Source: Deltaproteobacteria bacterium (GTDB taxonomy: Bacteria > Myxococcota_A > Polyangia > JAAYKL01). From it: a stretch of DNA of 49,764 nt. The notes under the pieces are model-generated. The model saw nothing but the letters and a program-made list of their open reading frames with translations, had not been told where the DNA came from and searched no databases. The position numbers were made by a program, and so were the translations under genes. Every line of letters starts with the position of its first letter. The first letter of the stretch is position 1. Location of the stretch: assembly GCA_016935665.1 (NCBI GenBank), contig JAFGQN010000229.1, forward strand, positions 1 through 49,764, given 5' to 3'. Of the stretch, positions 7,105 through 21,100 are shown piece after piece.

Positions 7105-8724
7105 TTAACCTTCAGGTGTTGGGCATTTTTCCGCAAAATGCACCATACAGACCTCCACCTTGATTCCCAGTTGTTCAAATACCTCCAGCCAGCGGTTCTG
7201 ATTGTCCCGGAGGCGGTCGCCGGGACCTTTGACCTCAATGAATCGACCGCCGTTTTCATCGCGCACAAAGAGATCGGGGAACCCGCTGCGATGGTTGGGG
7301 ATGTCGGAGAGCAAATGTGCGAATACGCCGCGCCACTGCGCCTGTGAAAATGCATCGAAACAGGACAGCAGCTCCTCAATGGCCAGCGTGTTCCAGTGGA
7401 CGAATGGGTTTTGGATGCCTTTTTTTTTGTTCCAGTTGGTAACGATTCTGTTGCGCCAGACCGAGTGCGATTGATTGAGGGTGTCTTCGATAAGGGAGGC
7501 GCGGCGGTATCGAAAATACGGCTCGTTTAAATCCGATGGCGCAGACTGAAAGCGATGGTGCCACACACCTTGCACATCGGCAAAAATTACCGACCAGAAA
7601 ATCAATCCAAAGATTCCCAGCGGCAGATGATTCTCCCGCCAGATGGCGCCGTCGATATGCGCACAGGTCACCTCCTCCACAGTGCCGCTTTCCTGTTGCC
7701 ACGTTTCGTGACGTTCTTTGATTTTCAGGATGGGAACCTGTGGCACAGGTTGGTTTGTTTTTTTGTACACCCGTGGGGCGAATCGCCTGTGAAAAGCGGT
7801 CTCATCGGCGCACAGCGGGCTTTTAAATATTGCTTCAAGGATGGTCTGTGCATCATTGAAGCGATGCTGCTTAAACGCAATGCGGCATTGGCGCTCCCTG
7901 GACGGAGGCAGGTCGTTGGTGGCAAACAACCTTGCCGCTAAATCCACCATTCCCAGCTGCTCCAGTCGATACGCCACCTGGTTGGCCACTTTCGCAAAAC
8001 GGCTTTTAAGCAGTTCGCCCTGGTGAATGACGAGGAGACTCTCCGCCAGCGAAGGGAGAAAGTCAAACTGGCGGCACTGTGTCATGTGATGAAATGCCGC
8101 TCGCAAATCATTGAGATGAATGTACATAGATACTTCCCTGTCATCCGAAAACAGGCGATTGGATGGCGACAGTGGCACGGTTTCAAAACGCATCATGCCA
8201 ATATCTTCGAGGACAAATTCCGTCAGACTCTGGTGTTCGTTGCCAAAGTACAACAGGTTGAGACGCCGCACCGCATCACGAAAAGCGGGACGGATGATCT
8301 CCCGTCTACAACCCCAGTCTGCGGGTGGTTTTTCTTCGGTGTCGGGCTCAAAGCAACTTTGCAAATCCCGTTTGCGCGTATTGCGGTCTCCGTCTGTAAA
8401 AAGTGGCTTTGACTGAGCTACGGGCAAAAGGTGTATCACATCAAATGCGCGCACCGGCGGATTGCGTTCCAGCAGTCCCTTTGTCTCCAATTCCACAAGG
8501 GCCATTTCGATGCTGGGCACCTCCGCGTACTGGAGTGTATCGACAAGAAACAGCGGGCCTTTGCGCAACAGCAATCGCACCAGCAGACGCTGCGCCTGTT
8601 CATTTGCATCTTTAAAGCGATTCACAAACGACCAGTCGTCGTCGTGCAGAATATCGCCGTATCGCTGCACTACCGTGTCAATCATCTCAAGAAAGTAGTT
8701 CAGATAATAGTTAGCGGGCGGCAT
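7105..8724 (-). CDS. FAN1-like structure-specific nuclease (VRR-NUC)
   Basis: 539-aa protein matching bacterial FAN1 homologues in length and layout: an N-terminal helical/SAP-like DNA-binding region, a TPR-like middle part and a C-terminal VRR-NUC nuclease domain. The active-site pattern PD...EVK is intact: Asp484 in GFPDLFV, Glu497 and Lys499 in IEVKGPGDRLRDNQ. FAN1 enzymes cut 5-prime flaps and help repair DNA interstrand crosslinks using metal ions. Start is ATG 8724, with AGGGAGT four bases upstream; an ATG 39 bases further out has no better site. It is convergent with the sigma-54 gene, 10 bases apart, and divergent from the lipoprotein gene at 8995. Confidence 0.85.
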   Translation of the reverse strand: MPPANYYLNYFLEMIDTVVQRYGDILHDDDWSFVNRFKDANEQAQRLLVRLLLRKGPLFLVDTLQYAEVPSIEMALVELETKGLLERNPPVRAFDVIHLLPVAQSKPLFTDGDRNTRKRDLQSCFEPDTEEKPPADWGCRREIIRPAFRDAVRRLNLLYFGNEHQSLTEFVLEDIGMMRFETVPLSPSNRLFSDDREVSMYIHLNDLRAAFHHMTQCRQFDFLPSLAESLLVIHQGELLKSRFAKVANQVAYRLEQLGMVDLAARLFATNDLPPSRERQCRIAFKQHRFNDAQTILEAIFKSPLCADETAFHRRFAPRVYKKTNQPVPQVPILKIKERHETWQQESGTVEEVTCAHIDGAIWRENHLPLGIFGLIFWSVIFADVQGVWHHRFQSAPSDLNEPYFRYRRASLIEDTLNQSHSVWRNRIVTNWNKKKGIQNPFVHWNTLAIEELLSCFDAFSQAQWRGVFAHLLSDIPNHRSGFPDLFVRDENGGRFIEVKGPGDRLRDNQNRWLEVFEQLGIKVEVCMVHFAEKCPTPEG

Positions 8725-8818
8725 TGGACTCCCTGGGCTCTGTTGAAAACAGTGATGAAACACATTCGTTTAATAACGCATATCATCATCATCAGCAGCA
8801 GCAAGGCGAAATATGGTC

Positions 8819-9659: not shown

Positions 9660-9912
9660 TGGGAGAGTTGCCGCTTGCGCCGAAATTCAGCTGGCAAACG
9701 TCAGCCTTTCACGTGGATGACGCCCGCGTCTCCAACCGCAACCACCACATGCCTATCTTCTATGGTGTCACCGGCAATGGCGTGTATAATGGGCCCGGTG
9801 ACGCTTCCTCGCGCCATTGAGATCCATCGAACGCAGCAATACCGTTACCCGCGGCGTGGATGTCGGTATCAACGGGATGTGGCTCCATAAATTCGACGCT
9901 CTTTTAGGAGGT
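9660..9912 (+). pseudogene. Frameshifted 3-prime part of the lipoprotein gene
   Basis: ORF 9660-9821 (53 codons, MGELPLAPKFSW...) continues the barrel-like composition of the preceding gene in a shifted frame. Around 9817 the plausible frame changes again, giving RSNTVTRGVDVGINGMWLHKF up to about 9900, where it runs into the antisense lgt 3-prime end. Two frame changes plus the lost terminus point to decay. The alternative, a separate 53-aa gene, is possible but lacks its own ribosome site. Confidence 0.45.
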
Positions 9913-10815
9913 TGCACGTTTTTTGGATGTGAGGAAAATTATCGCGGCCGCTACACAACTGAGCATGCCAATCCACTGGGATGTGGTCAGGTTGAATATT
10001 ACGCCACGGCCGCTGTCGCCGCGTATGAACTCAATAAGAGTTCTTGTGAATCCATAGTACATCACAAAAAACAGGAACAGATGGCCCTTTGTTGAAAATC
10101 GGTTTTTCAGCAGCAGGAGCAGCCCAAAGAGGATGAATCCATTGAGTGATGAAACGAGCTGTGCGGGATACACCGGCAGTGATGTGGTGGCGTCACTTTG
10201 TACAAGCCCATCGTGGACATGGTGCCAGAACGCCGGGGCGCCTTTTTGCAGGGCGGCATGATGGGCAAATGCAACATCATTGGCGAATCGGCTTTCCCAG
10301 TTGGGAAACTGAATACCCAGGGTTTTAAGCCATGTGGGTGCAGTGTCAAAAATGGGGCGTCCATAGTCGCAACCGTATAAAAAGCATCCGATGCGTGTGA
10401 TGCCAAGACCCAGAGCAAGAGACGGTGTGGCGGCATCGGCAAAGTCCGCCAGAGAAAGTGGGTGTTTTCGGGTGTAAACCCATGCCCCCAGAAATCCCCC
10501 CATAAAACCGCCGTAGGCCACCAGTCCTGTGTGTCCGGGAATGAGAAGTTTGAGTGGGTGGTCGAAGTTCAAATGAGACCATTCGGTTATCACCGCCAGC
10601 AATCTCGCCCCCACAAGGGCGCACGCGGCACTGACCAGAATCAGGCGCTTCAGTTCAGTCGCTGGCAGTGACTGTTTGCCGAAGTACATGGTCATAAACC
10701 ATCCCGCCACAATAGAAATACCCAGCATCACCCCATACGCGTGAATGGGTAGATTGATTCCAGGAATGGTGAAGAGTACTGGATGCATACGAACTGGCTT
10801 ACATTTTTTTTTCAT
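9904..10815 (-). CDS. lgt: Prolipoprotein diacylglyceryl transferase
   Basis: Inner-membrane enzyme that moves diacylglycerol from phosphatidylglycerol to the lipobox Cys of prolipoproteins, first step of lipoprotein maturation. 303 aa with about seven membrane helices. Family signatures: LPIHAYGVMLG near the start, GLVAYGGFMGGF in the middle (Tyr where E. coli has the essential His, as in many Lgt), the conserved Arg in LGITRIGCFLYGCDYGRP, YPAQL, and RTLIEFIRGD near the end. No clear Shine-Dalgarno precedes ATG 10815; ATG 10788 (MHPVLFTIPG) is an equally good start. It serves the many lipoproteins in the window. It follows the cytochrome operon on the same strand after 25 bases. Confidence 0.93.
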   Translation of the reverse strand: MKKKCKPVRMHPVLFTIPGINLPIHAYGVMLGISIVAGWFMTMYFGKQSLPATELKRLILVSAACALVGARLLAVITEWSHLNFDHPLKLLIPGHTGLVAYGGFMGGFLGAWVYTRKHPLSLADFADAATPSLALGLGITRIGCFLYGCDYGRPIFDTAPTWLKTLGIQFPNWESRFANDVAFAHHAALQKGAPAFWHHVHDGLVQSDATTSLPVYPAQLVSSLNGFILFGLLLLLKNRFSTKGHLFLFFVMYYGFTRTLIEFIRGDSGRGVIFNLTTSQWIGMLSCVAAAIIFLTSKKRATS

Positions 10816-10840: not shown

Positions 10841-12568
10841 TCAGTGGGGTGTTTGGCGGTTGTCATCGGTGTCTTCGGCGGCCAGTCTGGCGGCGGTGGC
10901 GCGTTCAGCGGCAGTGATTTGCAAACTGGGCAGCAGTGTGACTTTTTGAGTGGCCGTCGCGAGTCGGATGGCAGTAAGGCGTTTATCCATTTTTTTGTAC
11001 ATGCGAGAAAATCGCGCCGTTTGCTTTCCGGCAACGCCATTCAGATTGGCCGCCCAGCGATAGCCAATGGGTTGGTACCACAGCTCGGCGGTGACGCGGA
11101 AGGGGCCTTCGGCATTGCCAATAGGAACCATGTAATTAATTTTGTCGCCACCGTCGGCAAAACTGATGTCCTCTCTGGCAGCGCCTTTCACTGCGATGTC
11201 GCCGTTGGCGGTTTCTTTGTCAAAGCCGGAAGGCGTGATGCGGTTGTCTTTGAGATAAGTGGTGGCATTGAGAAGGCCGGTGGTCACGCGGTTCGAGTTG
11301 TCTGCCAGAATCGCTTCGTAGATTTGCACCTGTTCCTCATTGTTAATCGAATCATAGTGAGGCTCGAATTTGCGGGCGTCTCGGTCATTGTTGTTGCCGC
11401 GAATTTTACCGTCGTAGAGCCTGCCGGATTCAAAAATGGTGCCCCCATCGTCCTGCACCGTGAAATGAATCCAAACGCGTCTGGAGGGATAGGCTGTGGG
11501 CAGTTTATGACCGGCCAGGTTTTCCACGGTCACCATCGCCGAGAGCTGCCCGTCGCCCGTTTGCGCCGGTCCCACCGAAACGGCGATGGTGGCCGCATTC
11601 TTCTGCAACTGTTCGATGGTGGCGATTCGCGCGTTTTGCAATTCCGCAGTGTTGGCCTGTAAAAACAAATCGTTGCAAAACGTACTGAGCATGGACAGCA
11701 AAAAGAAATTGCCCCCTTTAAAAATGTGCTTTTGAACATTCTCTCTGGGCGCTCCCAACACACTGGAAATGGCCATGGCGCCGTCGGCTGCGGTCATGTG
11801 GCATTCCTGGCAGCTCGATGCGTCGGCATAATCGCTATGCCGCCATTCCAAAAACGGCACCTGTTCTGCCAGCTGTTCCATATCGCTGCTGTTTTCGCCC
11901 AGCGCATGGGTGTAGAGTGTGTGGCAGGTGGCGCAAAACTCCGCCTGCTGAATGTGATTGCCCTTTTGGGGAGTGTATCCGGTGGATGAGTTCATGATAT
12001 GCGCCACGCCCGGTTCAATATCAAAGGGACCAAAGACGCGCTTTGCGCCCGGAGGTTGCGTCACATCCACATGAAATCCCCCGGAAAAACTCAGAGACGT
12101 CCCCAGACGCTTGTCGGTAATCTGGTGGCACACTGTGCACGATACGCCATCTTTTGCGAATGGCGCTACCGGATTCGCAAGGCGTCCGAACGCATTGGGT
12201 AAATGGGCAAACACCTGACCGGATGTGCCATTCTGTTGTTGGATTATCCGGGCCATGGGCATATGACAGGTGGCGCATTTATCCTCAATGGCAGCCGAGG
12301 CATCGGGGTGATCAACGGTTTCCCGCTGAACAGACGCGCGCCAGTAGGGATCGTTGGAGGCATTGGCCATGACCGACGCGCGCCAGTGAACGCCGATGGA
12401 TGCATCGCCATTCCGATCCGCCAGTCCGTTGTGGCACGCCTGACAATCGGTGGAAGCGGAAAACAGGCGGGAAGGGGGAACCTCCTGCTGGGCGAAGCTG
12501 CAATGGACACCTGCGGCTGTGATAAAAACCAGAGTTATTGTGCGCAATGATACAGTCGTCGCACTCAT
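10841..12568 (-). CDS. Pentaheme c-type cytochrome
   Basis: 575-aa exported multiheme cytochrome. A signal peptide covers about residues 1-26. CxxCH heme sites lie at 42-46, 98-102, 144-148, 212-216 and 253-257; the second is followed by MPM and extra His residues could be distal ligands. The C-terminal half (about 345-575) has no heme motif; it starts with LAGHKLPTAYPSRRVWIHF, a motif I know from the cytochrome-c-554-like/DmsE-type multiheme family, and looks beta-rich. ATG 12568 overlaps the TGA of the upstream cytochrome-barrel gene (ATGA), so both are made together. An extended start at 12616 would lie inside that gene. Likely a periplasmic or surface electron carrier; partner and substrate unknown. 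Confidence 0.85.
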   Translation of the reverse strand: MSATTVSLRTITLVFITAAGVHCSFAQQEVPPSRLFSASTDCQACHNGLADRNGDASIGVHWRASVMANASNDPYWRASVQRETVDHPDASAAIEDKCATCHMPMARIIQQQNGTSGQVFAHLPNAFGRLANPVAPFAKDGVSCTVCHQITDKRLGTSLSFSGGFHVDVTQPPGAKRVFGPFDIEPGVAHIMNSSTGYTPQKGNHIQQAEFCATCHTLYTHALGENSSDMEQLAEQVPFLEWRHSDYADASSCQECHMTAADGAMAISSVLGAPRENVQKHIFKGGNFFLLSMLSTFCNDLFLQANTAELQNARIATIEQLQKNAATIAVSVGPAQTGDGQLSAMVTVENLAGHKLPTAYPSRRVWIHFTVQDDGGTIFESGRLYDGKIRGNNNDRDARKFEPHYDSINNEEQVQIYEAILADNSNRVTTGLLNATTYLKDNRITPSGFDKETANGDIAVKGAAREDISFADGGDKINYMVPIGNAEGPFRVTAELWYQPIGYRWAANLNGVAGKQTARFSRMYKKMDKRLTAIRLATATQKVTLLPSLQITAAERATAARLAAEDTDDNRQTPH

Positions 12569-13740
12569 AACGCCCCCCGCCATCCATCTGTGAAACCGCC
12601 ATCGAACCAGTCCCACAGGAGATATGCCATGTATTGAATATTATCCCTGTCGAAGTCCGTCACCGGAATTCGGGCGCCCAGACAGAATCGGATGTGTTGG
12701 CGCTGATTCAAAGTGACCTGCAGTTCCGGAAGCACCTGCCACTCAATTTTCGTGTCGTCCTCCATCTCTTTGGCGCCCAGAACTTCAATCATGGGAGACC
12801 ATGTTCGGCCGTATCCGCCTTTGGCAAAACTATGACCAAACACACCGCGCCAGAACAGCTCGTGGGCGCCCTTATTCGGTTTGGTGGAAAGTTCCGCTCC
12901 GGCCTGAAACTGCAAAAAGCCCAGGGCGGGAATGAGTTGCCCCAGAGTTAAAAAGGGTTCTATTCGGAAAAATCCTTTGCCGATTCGGTCAGCTTCATCA
13001 CCGGAAGGCAAAATGACTTCGGTGGACAGACTCATAATGGTGAGCGACTTGAGACTGTGGAATACATTGAATTTGTAGCCCAGCGCAATATCCCCGACGC
13101 CTTCGCCAAAGCGGGTTTGTGTGGTCCCATCGGCCTTCTGACGCTCCAGTTCTTTTACCACCACTGGTATGGCCACTTCAACCTGGTGCCGTGCGCCGAT
13201 GCGTTTTTCAAAAACAAACTTTCCCTCAAACATCCAGGGTGAACCACCGTTCATCGAATACGTGAACATGTATTCATCTTCCGGGTACGCTTTGCCGGTG
13301 ACCAATGCTTTGGGCAGATTGAGGATGCCGTCGGGCCATTTGTCTTCTGCGCAAAACCGTTTAATGTGTGCTACGGCCGCCTTCAATTGGGCGTCGGTCA
13401 GCGCCTCGCCGAACGCGGGCATCATTTGATGGAAACCGCGCACAGGGCCGCCCAGACGGGCAATCTGAAACCAGTCCGCCGCGCCTTCGCGAGAGGTGAA
13501 GTTGCAGTCTGAAAAATCGGGTAGCGGCGTTTCGAAGGCCACCGAGGATTGGGAGTTGCCCCGACCATTGCCGCCATGACACGCGGCGCAGGCGGTCATA
13601 TAGATGTCGCGACCGTTTTTCAGTGCGTTCCACTCGGTTTGTTGGGATGCCGTTCGGGCCAAATCGGGCGCCACCAGACCCAGAGCTGCGGCGACAACAG
13701 CAATTCCTATTACCATTGCGGTTTTGTTTCGATTGCGCAT
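12565..13740 (-). CDS. Monoheme cytochrome c fused to beta-barrel-like domain
   Basis: 391 aa in two parts. After a signal peptide (about 1-31), residues 32-125 form a class I cytochrome c: CAACH at 51-55 binds heme and Met106/Met107 in HQMMPAF provide the axial ligand. Residues about 155-391 have alternating strands, GDIALGYKFNVF, VILPSGDEADR, and repeated aromatic turns, like outer-membrane transport-type barrels or their phenol-degradation MetA-like relatives. A heme domain joined to a barrel suggests an electron conduit at the outer membrane. The gene is first in the pair with the pentaheme cytochrome, overlapping by four bases. The ribosome site before ATG 13740 is weak (AAAGAAAAC). The barrel assignment is inference from composition. 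Confidence 0.75.
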   Translation of the reverse strand: MRNRNKTAMVIGIAVVAAALGLVAPDLARTASQQTEWNALKNGRDIYMTACAACHGGNGRGNSQSSVAFETPLPDFSDCNFTSREGAADWFQIARLGGPVRGFHQMMPAFGEALTDAQLKAAVAHIKRFCAEDKWPDGILNLPKALVTGKAYPEDEYMFTYSMNGGSPWMFEGKFVFEKRIGARHQVEVAIPVVVKELERQKADGTTQTRFGEGVGDIALGYKFNVFHSLKSLTIMSLSTEVILPSGDEADRIGKGFFRIEPFLTLGQLIPALGFLQFQAGAELSTKPNKGAHELFWRGVFGHSFAKGGYGRTWSPMIEVLGAKEMEDDTKIEWQVLPELQVTLNQRQHIRFCLGARIPVTDFDRDNIQYMAYLLWDWFDGGFTDGWRGAL

Positions 13741-17053: not shown

Positions 17054-20000
17054 CTATTTTTTGGTGATACGTCTACCGACGGGCCGTCTAACCGGTTTGG
17101 CCACAGATTGTTTAACCATCTTTTTAGCCGGCTTGCGCAACGGTGCTTCCCTGACTGGTTTTCGAGGTTTTACGGGTTTGGATGGAACAACCGGCCCGCT
17201 CGGTTTTATGGGCTTTTGAACAGGGAGCATCATGCATTGCGGGCAGGGAATGTATTGATGTTTCGTCACGTCTTTAATATCTTCAAACCAGATTAAATCC
17301 GCATCATTCAGTTTGTCCAGCTTTTTGCAGTTGAGCAGGTGAACGAGTTTGGTTTTGGTGTTTCCAGCCATGGCGAAAATAGTCACCGGCATGGTGACAT
17401 CCATAACGGTCACCGCGAAATCCTTCAGACATATTTCGTCACGTTTGAGACGAACCAGCGTTTTGCAGGTGGGGTGTTTCAGCGTGATACTCGTTGACAC
17501 CAGACAGGTGCGTTTGACATCCAGTCTGGCGGCGCCTGCCTTGAATGGAATTTCCACTTCATAGGTGCCATCCAGCATGTCTTTGGCTGGCCATCTGTGG
17601 TTACGTCCTGCAGGCGTTGTGAAGAAAATACGGTCGGCGAAACCAGGACCCAGCAGGTGAGCGCTGTTGTCTTTGGGTTCCACGTGCATACAGATGGTAT
17701 TTTTATCTTCCATGTATCCAAATACCACGCTGTGTTTGGCAGAAGGTATAAAGGGAACATTCCATGAACCGCGATATTCAAGGGTGTAACGCTGCTCACG
17801 ACGCAAAGCAGTAATAAGAGCCTGAACCGCTTTGGTCTGATAAGTCTGTTCAAATTTTCGGATTGCCGTCGCACTCAATTGCGGAACCGCCACTAGTGTG
17901 TTGACGGATTTCGCAATAGAGACTTTTCCAGGCACAGTGCGCGAACGTTTGGAACGACTTGCCGATTGAACAACTTTTTGTAGTTTAGCAGCTGCCCGCG
18001 CTTTAGCATTGAATTCATCTGTATATTTTTGAGTGGCGACGGTCACTGTTTTGGTGAGCACTTTCGCCAGCTCATTTTTACGTTTTGTAATTTCCGTGGG
18101 TTTGGCCATACGAACGCCTGTACATGTGACGTCGACGCGGTATTCTCCGGGACTATCAGGGATAAAGGAACCCACGTACTCACCTTTGCCCATATGTTTG
18201 AGAACAATTCGTTTGGCCGCCCCTGGTACGGGTTTGAGTCGGTTTGCCAGCTGGCTGATATATTTGTCGGTGGGATTTTCAATATCTGCCAGAACAGGAT
18301 TCTTTTCTTTGGTTAGTTTGTCATACTGCTGAATTGAACGTTTACACAGCAGCGCGAGTTTGTCGCCAGCCCAGGAGGGCGGCTGGGTGATGAGTCCCGT
18401 CATGCGTGCATTGGTAATTGCCTTGCCCGACTCATCATTCAGGGATGCACGCACCCATACCCTGTTTCCGGGGGCCGCTTTGCCTTTGCTCACCAGGTCC
18501 ACTCTGAACTTCATGTCTTCTTTAACGAGCGCACCTACGGCATATCCGCCCTTACCGGTACCTGTACGAGTGACTTTCAATTGCCACTGGCCACTCCAGC
18601 AGTGCTCAGCGCCGGAAATATGCAGGGGGTAATTGACGGTAATCATCGTGCTGTAGCTGGTTTCAGCAAAGCGTATGCCCTCTGTGCGCATGGCGATTTC
18701 TTTGTTGATTGTGCCTGCTTTTTGGGGCAGGAGTACTTCAACCCTCCAGTTGGATGGCGTTGGATCATCGTGGTTGAGATAAAACACCACCTGACTTTGC
18801 CCCGAATGAATCTGCACCGGTTCCGTTACGGATTGGCCTTTTGAGAGAATGGGGTCGGGTGTCATCATACCTGCAGAGTAACCGTACAATCCCATAAATA
18901 TATTGTTAAACCAGTTGTGAATCAGGATGGGCGCCGCTTTGGGGCCGCCGGACCATGACACGATTTCGGTGAAATCCACTTCTGGAATGCCTCCCGTATC
19001 ATGTACGATATCTTTCAACCCGTCCACCCAGGCGGAACCACCGCTCATAAGAGCCATTGGGTATATTCGAACTTCAGGGTCTCCTCCGTTGAACCAGTAG
19101 TCGGCGCCCAGTCCACTGTTGTGAAACACAGCCGACGTTGCGGGAGGCATGTTTTCCATACCGTCGGTGAGTGTGAGAATCACCCGTTCCGCTTCCGAAT
19201 CTCCAATGTCTGTGAGTCTGTCTCGACAGAGGAGCAATCCCTTGCCCAGCGACGTGTTGCCGTTGGGCGCTACACCAAGGCATGTTGTTTCGACGGCAGT
19301 ACCGTCCGATTTGGCATTTCCGTTTCCAAGCTCGTACGCCCCAAGGACATCCGTTGCCGGTCCTCCGCTGGCAAACCAATAGACGCCGAGTTTGTATTTA
19401 TCGCTGTTGGCGGTGCCTTGCACCATATCAGCAAAAGCACCCGCACCACTGGCGGCTGCTTCCCAGCGATTCTCCCAATTCATTGAACCCGAACGGTCCA
19501 GCAAAATGGTGGCGTTGACATTTTCTTTGGTCTCGCTCACGTTCATGCTGAAAGGGACAACTTCACTTTGAGCAACCAGCGTACCACTGTTGAATTTTTT
19601 TGCCACAACGCGGATTTCATTGCCGCCGTTGGTTCCTTCCGGAATGTACAACACATCTCCTGTACCCAATACTTTGGTTTGCAGTGTCCAGTTCAGTGCC
19701 GAACCGCCATCCTGCAAAAATTCCATGGCTGCGGCAATTGACGGCAAACTTCCTGGATAACTGAATTCAACCAGCACACTATCTCCAGCGCCAACCCAAC
19801 TGTCTACCACCAGCTGCGCAATGTAACGCATTCTTTCGCGTCCAGCGGGTAGAGTCGTGCCGCCGCCCTGTGCGGCGAGTCCCATGTCTACAGAAACAGG
19901 GACGTTCATAAAGCATTTGGGCGCCAGTGCAGAACCTGCATTCATGTGTTGAGCAGTGACGGATGCGGTTCCGTACTCGCCATATTCGATGGCAACGGTG

Positions 20001-21100
20001 CCAATCGTTGCCTGATTGTCGGCAGCCCCATTATTAATGGTGCATACTGTTACCGGCAGGTCTTCGGTCATTTCAAACTGCCATTGTTCACCGGCAGCGT
20101 CGGCCACGGAAAGGACGCCTGAGCCTGCGTGTGAAATTCGAATCGGCGTTGACGCAAGCCGGCGCAGGGAAACAGATGTGCCTGCAAAAAGTGATTTTGG
20201 ATGCCCCGCTTCATAAATGGAAAAATCAATGGCGCCGTTGCTGGTGCCCACAGGCCAGGTGAATGAGCCGGTTGTTGTTGCTGTGACAACCCCCAATGGC
20301 GACATGCTTATCGTCAACCCGGCGGGGAAAGAGCTGTTTGATACTGCAAATGAATAGGTGAAACCTTCATCGGGTACAACCGGGTCTGTTCCGGTTTGTC
20401 CCTGAAATATGTTGATTTCGGAAAAGTCCATCATTGGTTTCAGATGAAGATGCAGCCCGTCAATGATGGATTTTGCACCTGCAGATTCGGTGATGACCAG
20501 CTGAAACGTTCCGCTGGACGTGCCGGCAGACGGCCATGAAAAATAGGCAGGATCATACGTGGCAGTGACAGAACCCAGATTTGTGAAAGCCAGGTTCAGG
20601 TGCTCCGAAATTGAGTTTACCGGGGATGTCAGTGAAAAAATGATGCCATCATCCGCCAGCAGGGGATCGCTCCCTGTCTGATTTTTGTAAACATTAAAAT
20701 TGGTGAAGTCGATGACGCGCAGGTGAATGTCTATTTCTCTGGTGGCTGTGTGACCGGGATTGGTTGAATCGGTCAGCAAAAACTGCAGTCTTCCCTGAAT
20801 GCTGGCACCTCCGGATGCTTTCCAGTCAGAGATAGTACACACCAGCTCATTGTATTGTCCCTGTTCATTGTCATCAATGCCATCATTATTGTTGTCGACA
20901 AAAATACCATCATTGGAAGTGAATGTTGTCCCCACTGCAAAATTTCCTATGAGCACTGTTGGATTGGACCAGTTCCATCTTGCAGAGTTGTTGCCCGGAA
21001 CAGGAACGGAGTCCTCAAACAGTACGGGGTGATGCTGTTGCAGGACGGTTCCTCCGCTTTGAGCGGAAAATAAATAGTAAATGCTATACTGTAGTCCCAT
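17054..21100 (-). CDS. Giant VWA-domain protein with repeats and Zn-like Cys motif
   Basis: 1348 aa. Residues 69-77 (DNNNDGIDD) form a calcium-type loop. Two repeats of about 90 residues follow, from 131 (DFTNFNVYKNQTGSDP) and 225 (DFSEINIFQGQTGTDP). A VWA domain starts near 530 with the MIDAS motif DRSGSM at about 532-537; its surroundings recall CLCA-type VWA proteins. Ig-like segments follow. Near 1248-1291 is HLLNCKKL...PCPQC, a spacing like the Ada-type zinc knuckle. The tail is Lys/Pro/Arg rich. The start is firm (AGGAGG, eight bases before ATG 21100), yet there is no signal peptide, which is odd for such domains. It follows the beta-helix lipoprotein by 44 bases. Adhesion or surface role is inferred. 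Confidence 0.75.
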   Translation of the reverse strand: MGLQYSIYYLFSAQSGGTVLQQHHPVLFEDSVPVPGNNSARWNWSNPTVLIGNFAVGTTFTSNDGIFVDNNNDGIDDNEQGQYNELVCTISDWKASGGASIQGRLQFLLTDSTNPGHTATREIDIHLRVIDFTNFNVYKNQTGSDPLLADDGIIFSLTSPVNSISEHLNLAFTNLGSVTATYDPAYFSWPSAGTSSGTFQLVITESAGAKSIIDGLHLHLKPMMDFSEINIFQGQTGTDPVVPDEGFTYSFAVSNSSFPAGLTISMSPLGVVTATTTGSFTWPVGTSNGAIDFSIYEAGHPKSLFAGTSVSLRRLASTPIRISHAGSGVLSVADAAGEQWQFEMTEDLPVTVCTINNGAADNQATIGTVAIEYGEYGTASVTAQHMNAGSALAPKCFMNVPVSVDMGLAAQGGGTTLPAGRERMRYIAQLVVDSWVGAGDSVLVEFSYPGSLPSIAAAMEFLQDGGSALNWTLQTKVLGTGDVLYIPEGTNGGNEIRVVAKKFNSGTLVAQSEVVPFSMNVSETKENVNATILLDRSGSMNWENRWEAAASGAGAFADMVQGTANSDKYKLGVYWFASGGPATDVLGAYELGNGNAKSDGTAVETTCLGVAPNGNTSLGKGLLLCRDRLTDIGDSEAERVILTLTDGMENMPPATSAVFHNSGLGADYWFNGGDPEVRIYPMALMSGGSAWVDGLKDIVHDTGGIPEVDFTEIVSWSGGPKAAPILIHNWFNNIFMGLYGYSAGMMTPDPILSKGQSVTEPVQIHSGQSQVVFYLNHDDPTPSNWRVEVLLPQKAGTINKEIAMRTEGIRFAETSYSTMITVNYPLHISGAEHCWSGQWQLKVTRTGTGKGGYAVGALVKEDMKFRVDLVSKGKAAPGNRVWVRASLNDESGKAITNARMTGLITQPPSWAGDKLALLCKRSIQQYDKLTKEKNPVLADIENPTDKYISQLANRLKPVPGAAKRIVLKHMGKGEYVGSFIPDSPGEYRVDVTCTGVRMAKPTEITKRKNELAKVLTKTVTVATQKYTDEFNAKARAAAKLQKVVQSASRSKRSRTVPGKVSIAKSVNTLVAVPQLSATAIRKFEQTYQTKAVQALITALRREQRYTLEYRGSWNVPFIPSAKHSVVFGYMEDKNTICMHVEPKDNSAHLLGPGFADRIFFTTPAGRNHRWPAKDMLDGTYEVEIPFKAGAARLDVKRTCLVSTSITLKHPTCKTLVRLKRDEICLKDFAVTVMDVTMPVTIFAMAGNTKTKLVHLLNCKKLDKLNDADLIWFEDIKDVTKHQYIPCPQCMMLPVQKPIKPSGPVVPSKPVKPRKPVREAPLRKPAKKMVKQSVAKPVRRPVGRRITKK

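Follow-up and report, generated by a model that had tools for sequence, protein, structure and literature searches.

We identified a two-gene module in which a class-I cytochrome c is fused to a predicted outer-membrane barrel and a pentaheme cytochrome is encoded by the adjacent gene. From homology and structure models we predict, with about even confidence, that the pair acts as a Cyc2-like outer-membrane electron-exchange station built from other parts. Slightly more tentatively, we propose that it represents a second, non-homologous kind of cytochrome-barrel fusion, a transferable module found in at least seven phyla, in which a class-I cytochrome c sits on a COG4313-type plug and, together with the pentaheme, passes electrons between a soluble outside compound and the periplasm. 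This two-gene station has probably gone unnamed until now: the open-access literature that we searched holds no earlier description of the cytochrome-barrel family, and subscription journals may hold one.

A cytochrome c fused to a predicted barrel

The window, that is, the whole stretch of DNA analysed, comprises 49,764 nt of Deltaproteobacteria bacterium GCA_016935665.1 (JAFGQN010000229.1:1-49,764; Myxococcota_A, Polyangia, JAAYKL01). The fusion gene lies on the minus strand (12565..13740) and encodes 391 aa, comprising a signal peptide, a class-I cytochrome c and the predicted barrel. An earlier note on this DNA had read the gene as a signal peptide, a CAACH cytochrome with a methionine ligand and a C-terminal domain, and our analysis confirmed this architecture, the domain after the cytochrome being beta-rich and about 235 residues long. 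The heme-binding motif CAACH (residues 51-55; 13576..13590, minus strand) is conserved as CxxCH in 47/47 homologues, and the cytochrome part matched the Pfam families PF13442 (E 8.8e-10) and PF00034 (E 9.2e-9). Met107, within MPAFG (13420..13422, minus strand), is invariant in the alignment as Met107-Pro108 and presumably provides the distal heme ligand. Residues C79 and C130 of the cytochrome domain are absent together in both sequences that lack them, and this joint loss suggests a disulphide between the two.

The cytochrome is connected to the barrel by a linker (residues 138-156; 13273..13329, minus strand) with the consensus GExNLPRALFTEKAFPEDE. Nine of its 19 positions are invariant, and it is also present in 6/7 homologues that were found by profile and not by pattern. 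By analogy with the N terminus of COG4313 channels, this linker could be a lumen plug. The predicted barrel domain itself covers residues 156-377 (12610..13275, minus strand), and the protein ends in a nearly invariant aromatic tail, LLWDWFDGGFTDGW (residues 374-387; 12580..12621, minus strand). In the linker and the tail, 47% and 64% of positions, respectively, are invariant, compared to 12% in the cytochrome and 7% in the barrel; the two most conserved parts would both lie at the expected site of the periplasmic mouth. The invariance of the tail is partly a matter of ascertainment, because WDWFDGGF served as one of the search patterns in our scan of 84,980 genomes; members found by profile carry WDW[FY]DGG[FL]xxGW, with one divergent tail reading WDFADGPF. 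Despite this near-invariance, residues 379-391 are disordered in the AlphaFold2 model. A protein distantly related to the fusion, whose tail reads WDFADGPFWAGW (L084:3478-4845, minus strand), hints that cytochrome-barrel fusions may form a larger superfamily.

A search of 96 related genomes yielded nine full-length homologues, counting the window's own, and those in other genomes were 38-69% identical to it. From a scan of 84,980 species genomes we obtained 48 loci, or 47 without a short fragment (L078), and the matches at these 47 loci span cytochrome and barrel jointly. The loci belong to Myxococcota, Acidobacteriota (including Thermoanaerobaculia and Aminicenantes bins), Gemmatimonadota, Latescibacterota, Gammaproteobacteria, Rhodothermota/Balneolota and Planctomycetota, so that the family occupies at least seven phyla. 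Each of the 47 fusion proteins checked contains exactly one CxxCH, placed 313-325 residues ahead of the tail motif. The presence of the cytochrome part in every homologue shows that it is no annotation artefact, and conservation across homologues likewise rules out a chance gene fusion. Between the window's fusion gene and its nearest relative, synonymous change greatly exceeds non-synonymous change (dN 0.22, dS 1.65). At one locus (L076), the fusion gene is broken by an apparent frameshift. The family tree contains 13 phylum changes, against a minimum of 7; these repeated changes are compatible with horizontal spread, short of proof as the members include metagenome bins. The fusion and pentaheme pair is also carried by the genome of Rhodohalobacter sulfatireducens WB101.

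Class of the barrel and comparison with Cyc2

The AlphaFold2 model, computed from a 33-sequence alignment, reached a mean pLDDT of 82, with block means mostly between 77 and 97 over residues 156-377, and DSSP counted 13 strands in the barrel. The best solved folds returned by Foldseek were FapF (2.5e-10) and the COG4313 channel 4rl8 (2e-7), followed by NanC and KdgM. While Phenol_MetA_deg (PF13557) was matched only below threshold by the C-terminal part of the window protein (E 0.048), 28/33 members matched it at E <= 0.1, with a best E of 2.7e-9. Taken as a prediction, the barrel claimed by the earlier note is thus supported by AlphaFold2, Foldseek and PF13557: the C-terminal domain is predicted to be an outer-membrane barrel, and its modelled fold would place it in the COG4313 12-strand class, even though DSSP counts one strand more. 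We consider it highly improbable that the fusion is instead a periplasmic enzyme subunit ending in a soluble beta domain. The sequence alone would be compatible with a strand-rich soluble fold, and hydrophobic alternation is individually weak from strand to strand (p < 0.1 in 4/13 strands, which is only suggestive, and our conclusion does not rest on it). However, structure prediction gave a barrel with high confidence, the Foldseek matches are outer-membrane barrels, and the PF13557 matches recur through most of the family.

In fold and size, the barrel resembles the COG4313/Phenol_MetA_deg channels (PF13557; Pput2725, 4rl8) and FapF, and the conserved segment just ahead of its first strand may correspond to the N-terminal lumen plug of Pput2725. 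Unlike these proteins, the fusion has a heme domain ahead of the putative plug segment, and its last strand is followed by a conserved aromatic tail. COG4313 channels are thought to be nearly closed and to pass hydrophobic molecules (PMC4493636), and passage of a redox ion is therefore not assured.

The earlier note had assumed that known conduits are made of separate barrel and cytochrome polypeptides. This premise is wrong, for in Cyc2 a monoheme cytochrome and a porin are fused in one polypeptide; it oxidises dissolved Fe(II) with a single heme that is predicted to act as the plug of a small porin (PMC8406198). Work on Cyc2 calls it unique in fusing a cytochrome with a porin (PMC8406198), and the open-access literature that we searched describes no fused cytochrome-porin other than Cyc2. 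The family described here breaks this claimed uniqueness with another class of barrel and another cytochrome. Like Cyc2, the fusion is a single chain made of a signal peptide, one CxxCH, an N-terminal cytochrome and a C-terminal outer-membrane barrel, and its length of about 390 aa compares with the usual Cyc2 minimum of 365-400. The Cyc2 motif AXPXFAR[Q/K][T/Y], expected about five residues before CxxCH, was found in 0/47 fusion proteins, relaxed patterns included. Furthermore, the barrel of Cyc2 is an OprO/OprP-like porin of 16 strands and its cytochrome domain is short, whereas the fusion has a full class-I cytochrome with a Met ligand and a COG4313/FapF-like barrel. In keeping with this difference, the model falls short of 16 strands, and OprO/OprP was not among the 50 best Foldseek matches listed. 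Judged by these motif and fold tests, which stand in for a direct sequence comparison, the fusion family is not Cyc2. Moreover, the open-access literature searched mentions no pentaheme that serves Cyc2 as a dedicated partner.

The pentaheme partner and its pairing with the fusion

The pentaheme gene (10841..12568, minus strand) begins within the ATGA overlap and encodes 575 aa with a non-lipoprotein signal peptide. Its start is most likely the ATG at 12568, which gives the ATGA overlap with the fusion stop; a longer GTG open reading frame from 12616 was rejected as only mechanical. The five-heme region (CQACH, CATCH, CTVCH, CATCH, CQECH; 11798..12445, minus strand) has its CxxCH sites at 12431-12445, 12263-12277, 12125-12139, 11921-11935 and 11798-11812, which bears out the overlapping second gene with five CxxCH sites reported earlier. 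Exactly five CxxCH were counted in 44/44 pentaheme proteins checked. A beta-rich (Ig-like) domain forms the C-terminal part (10940..11593, minus strand) and includes the invariant H354 (GHKLP) and H404. Outside the motifs, His 205, 281, 354 and 404 are invariant together with Met67, and these four histidines and one methionine would suffice as five candidate distal heme ligands.

The sole significant solved fold for the pentaheme was the penta-heme c552 of Thermochromatium tepidum (5ze8; E 3e-15, 14% identity). The ExtKL model was matched by 23/29 pentaheme members, well under the curated cut-off; the window's pentaheme scored 27.3 bits against this model (NF040886), for a cut-off of 250 bits. 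Sharing with these proteins the five CxxCH, the C-terminal Ig-like domain and the penta-heme c552 fold, the pentaheme belongs with the ExtKL/T. tepidum c552 "PHC" cytochromes. According to a published survey, ExtKL, cable-bacterium pentahemes and c552 form one group that is related to an archaeal nanowire cytochrome (PMC11976967). The module adds to a cytochrome-barrel fusion a pentaheme of a group linked to ExtKL and to extracellular nanowires. Like ExtKL, which is encoded beside the porin ExtI, the pentaheme adjoins a gene for a predicted outer-membrane barrel. Unlike in the ExtKL/PHC systems, the partner barrel bears its own cytochrome and the score lies under the ExtKL cut-off; in addition, no selenocysteine site was seen in the pentaheme.

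These ExtKL relationships bear on a reading in which the barrel is a substrate-uptake channel working with a periplasmic reductase, comparable to ExtI/ExtKL of Geobacter. The barrel would import an oxyanion or a hydrophobic oxidant, the pentaheme would reduce it, and the fused cytochrome would feed in the electrons. The ExtKL matches of most pentahemes favour this reading, as does the precedent of ExtI, an outer-membrane porin that is encoded beside ExtKL and required for selenite and tellurite reduction (PMC5877670). It is nevertheless unlikely, in our view, given that the ExtKL score of the window protein is so far under the cut-off (27 vs 250 bits), that no ExtI model was matched by the fusion at E <= 1, and that the candidate distal ligands leave no clear open heme for catalysis.

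Only 1/43 module pentahemes has a lipobox-like site. Among 13 pentaheme relatives that do not adjoin a fusion, in contrast, 8 carry a strict lipobox and about 12 are lipoproteins by eye. These relatives (L086-L098) represent a wider pentaheme family in the host phylum, mostly with lipoprotein signals and with long low-complexity linkers. The lack of a lipobox within the module and its presence in most solo relatives fit a role of the barrel protein as membrane anchor, and the most economical interpretation has it taking the place of the pentaheme's lipid anchor. Taken further, the barrel might do nothing but anchor the cytochrome and the pentaheme to the inner face of the outer membrane, with nothing redox-active crossing. 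Besides the missing lipobox, the near closure of COG4313 barrels (PMC4493636) and the conservation minimum within the barrel are in line with this idea. We find it unlikely, as the barrel is about 40% identical across phyla and has 16 invariant positions, including the charged residues R180, E188, D217, R298, R312, E319 and H349, which is more than an anchor should need.

A gene with five CxxCH lies directly downstream of the fusion at 45/47 genome-collection loci with enough sequence. The two loci without such a neighbour are L047 and L069, and the sequence of L036 ends too soon to judge its downstream gene. Pairwise distances of the fusion and of the pentaheme are strongly correlated over 43 pairs (r = 0.93; permutation maximum 0.30, n=2000), partly owing to the shared descent of the genomes. 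The coupling of the fusion to a pentaheme gene, as first noticed in the window, is conserved across phyla. The pair is not obligatory, however, because some fusion genes stand alone. In a sample of the host phylum, fusion matches occurred in 13/379 genomes, one of them (G241) covering the cytochrome part only; apart from that one, seven host-phylum loci lack an adjoining pentaheme, adding to L047 and L069. The solo members examined fall mostly into one group of the tree, together with a locus that keeps the pair (L060). They have no constant partner, their neighbours being an acyl-CoA ligase, DJ-1/PfpI, a dehydrogenase E1, an inositol phosphatase and, at L069, a GMC oxidoreductase. In this last case (L069:4127-5269, plus strand), the GMC oxidoreductase gene (PF00732) directly follows the solo fusion, and its product is a possible alternative electron partner.

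Proposed function and host context

We propose the following model for the pair. Its components are supported by homology and structure models: a secreted fusion protein that carries one c-type heme, probably with His/Met ligation, in a class-I domain followed by a predicted COG4313-type outer-membrane barrel, and its partner, a secreted and non-lipidated pentaheme of the ExtKL/PHC kind, which comes from the adjacent and often overlapping gene. With both barrel termini presumably in the periplasm, the cytochrome would be held at the periplasmic mouth, the conserved linker would lie within the pore or close to it, and the aromatic tail, likewise conserved, would offer a surface for docking. A small soluble redox compound could then enter the pore and swap electrons with the cytochrome heme, while the pentaheme, docked on the same periplasmic face, would relay electrons through the periplasm. 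In lineages with a solo fusion, another periplasmic cytochrome would take over the role of the pentaheme. If electrons are indeed exchanged with outside compounds in this way, the fusion gene would mark, in Acidobacteriota, Gemmatimonadota, Latescibacterota, Myxococcota and others, a redox trait that has so far gone unrecognised.

The earlier note had proposed an electron conduit across the outer membrane, in other words a true transmembrane path to solid or surface-bound acceptors through an MtrAB-like chain. Two heme proteins and an outer-membrane barrel from one operon would suit such a path, and so would the structural link between the PHC family and extracellular cytochrome nanowires (PMC11976967). 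As in MtrAB, MtoAB, PioAB and further porin-cytochrome complexes, barrel and multiheme cytochrome are encoded by neighbouring genes. Unlike in those systems, however, the barrel is much smaller, a heme is fused to it, and the multiheme partner is a pentaheme and not a decaheme. MtrA sits inside the 26-strand MtrB, whereas the lumen of COG4313 channels measures about 10-12 Å even without the plug (PMC4493636), so that a barrel of the 12-strand class would be too narrow for a multiheme wire. The single heme of the fusion is N-terminal and hence should be periplasmic, which leaves no chain of hemes spanning the membrane. In addition, the MtrB/PioB barrel (PF11854) had no match in the host genome, setting the module apart from MtrAB-type complexes. 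A transmembrane conduit therefore does not follow from the data, and we regard it as quite improbable.

For the exchange station that we favour, the direction of electron flow may be considered in the light of the host genome, which is 95% complete. Cytochrome c maturation genes are present, and no heme-copper oxidase was matched. One cluster on contig C227 of the same genome (L099:5748-9919) contains genes for a Rieske protein and a cytochrome b, for a cytochrome bd-like subunit I that bears a C-terminal CxxCH, and for another large membrane protein. With no heme-copper oxidase matched, aerobic oxidation modelled on Cyc2 may not apply in this host. Given this lack of a match, the maturation genes and the Rieske/cytochrome b/bd-like module, electrons are no less likely to flow out to a soluble acceptor than to flow in. 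The module and the missing heme-copper oxidase match imply that the c-type cytochromes need another electron sink, which also counts in favour of the uptake channel with a periplasmic reductase.

Beyond the pair, no conserved neighbours were found outside close relatives, save for lineage-level synteny in Latescibacterota-like bins. In the window, lgt (PF01790, 3.7e-47; 9904-10815, minus strand) follows the pentaheme gene on the same strand, with 25 bases between them; this order recurs in a near relative (L032) and in no other locus examined. Elsewhere in the window, the minus strand encodes a FAN1-like nuclease with FAN1_HTH and VRR-NUC domains (7105-8763) and a protein of 1348 residues that combines a single von Willebrand A domain with a long C terminus rich in Lys/Arg/Pro (17054-21100).
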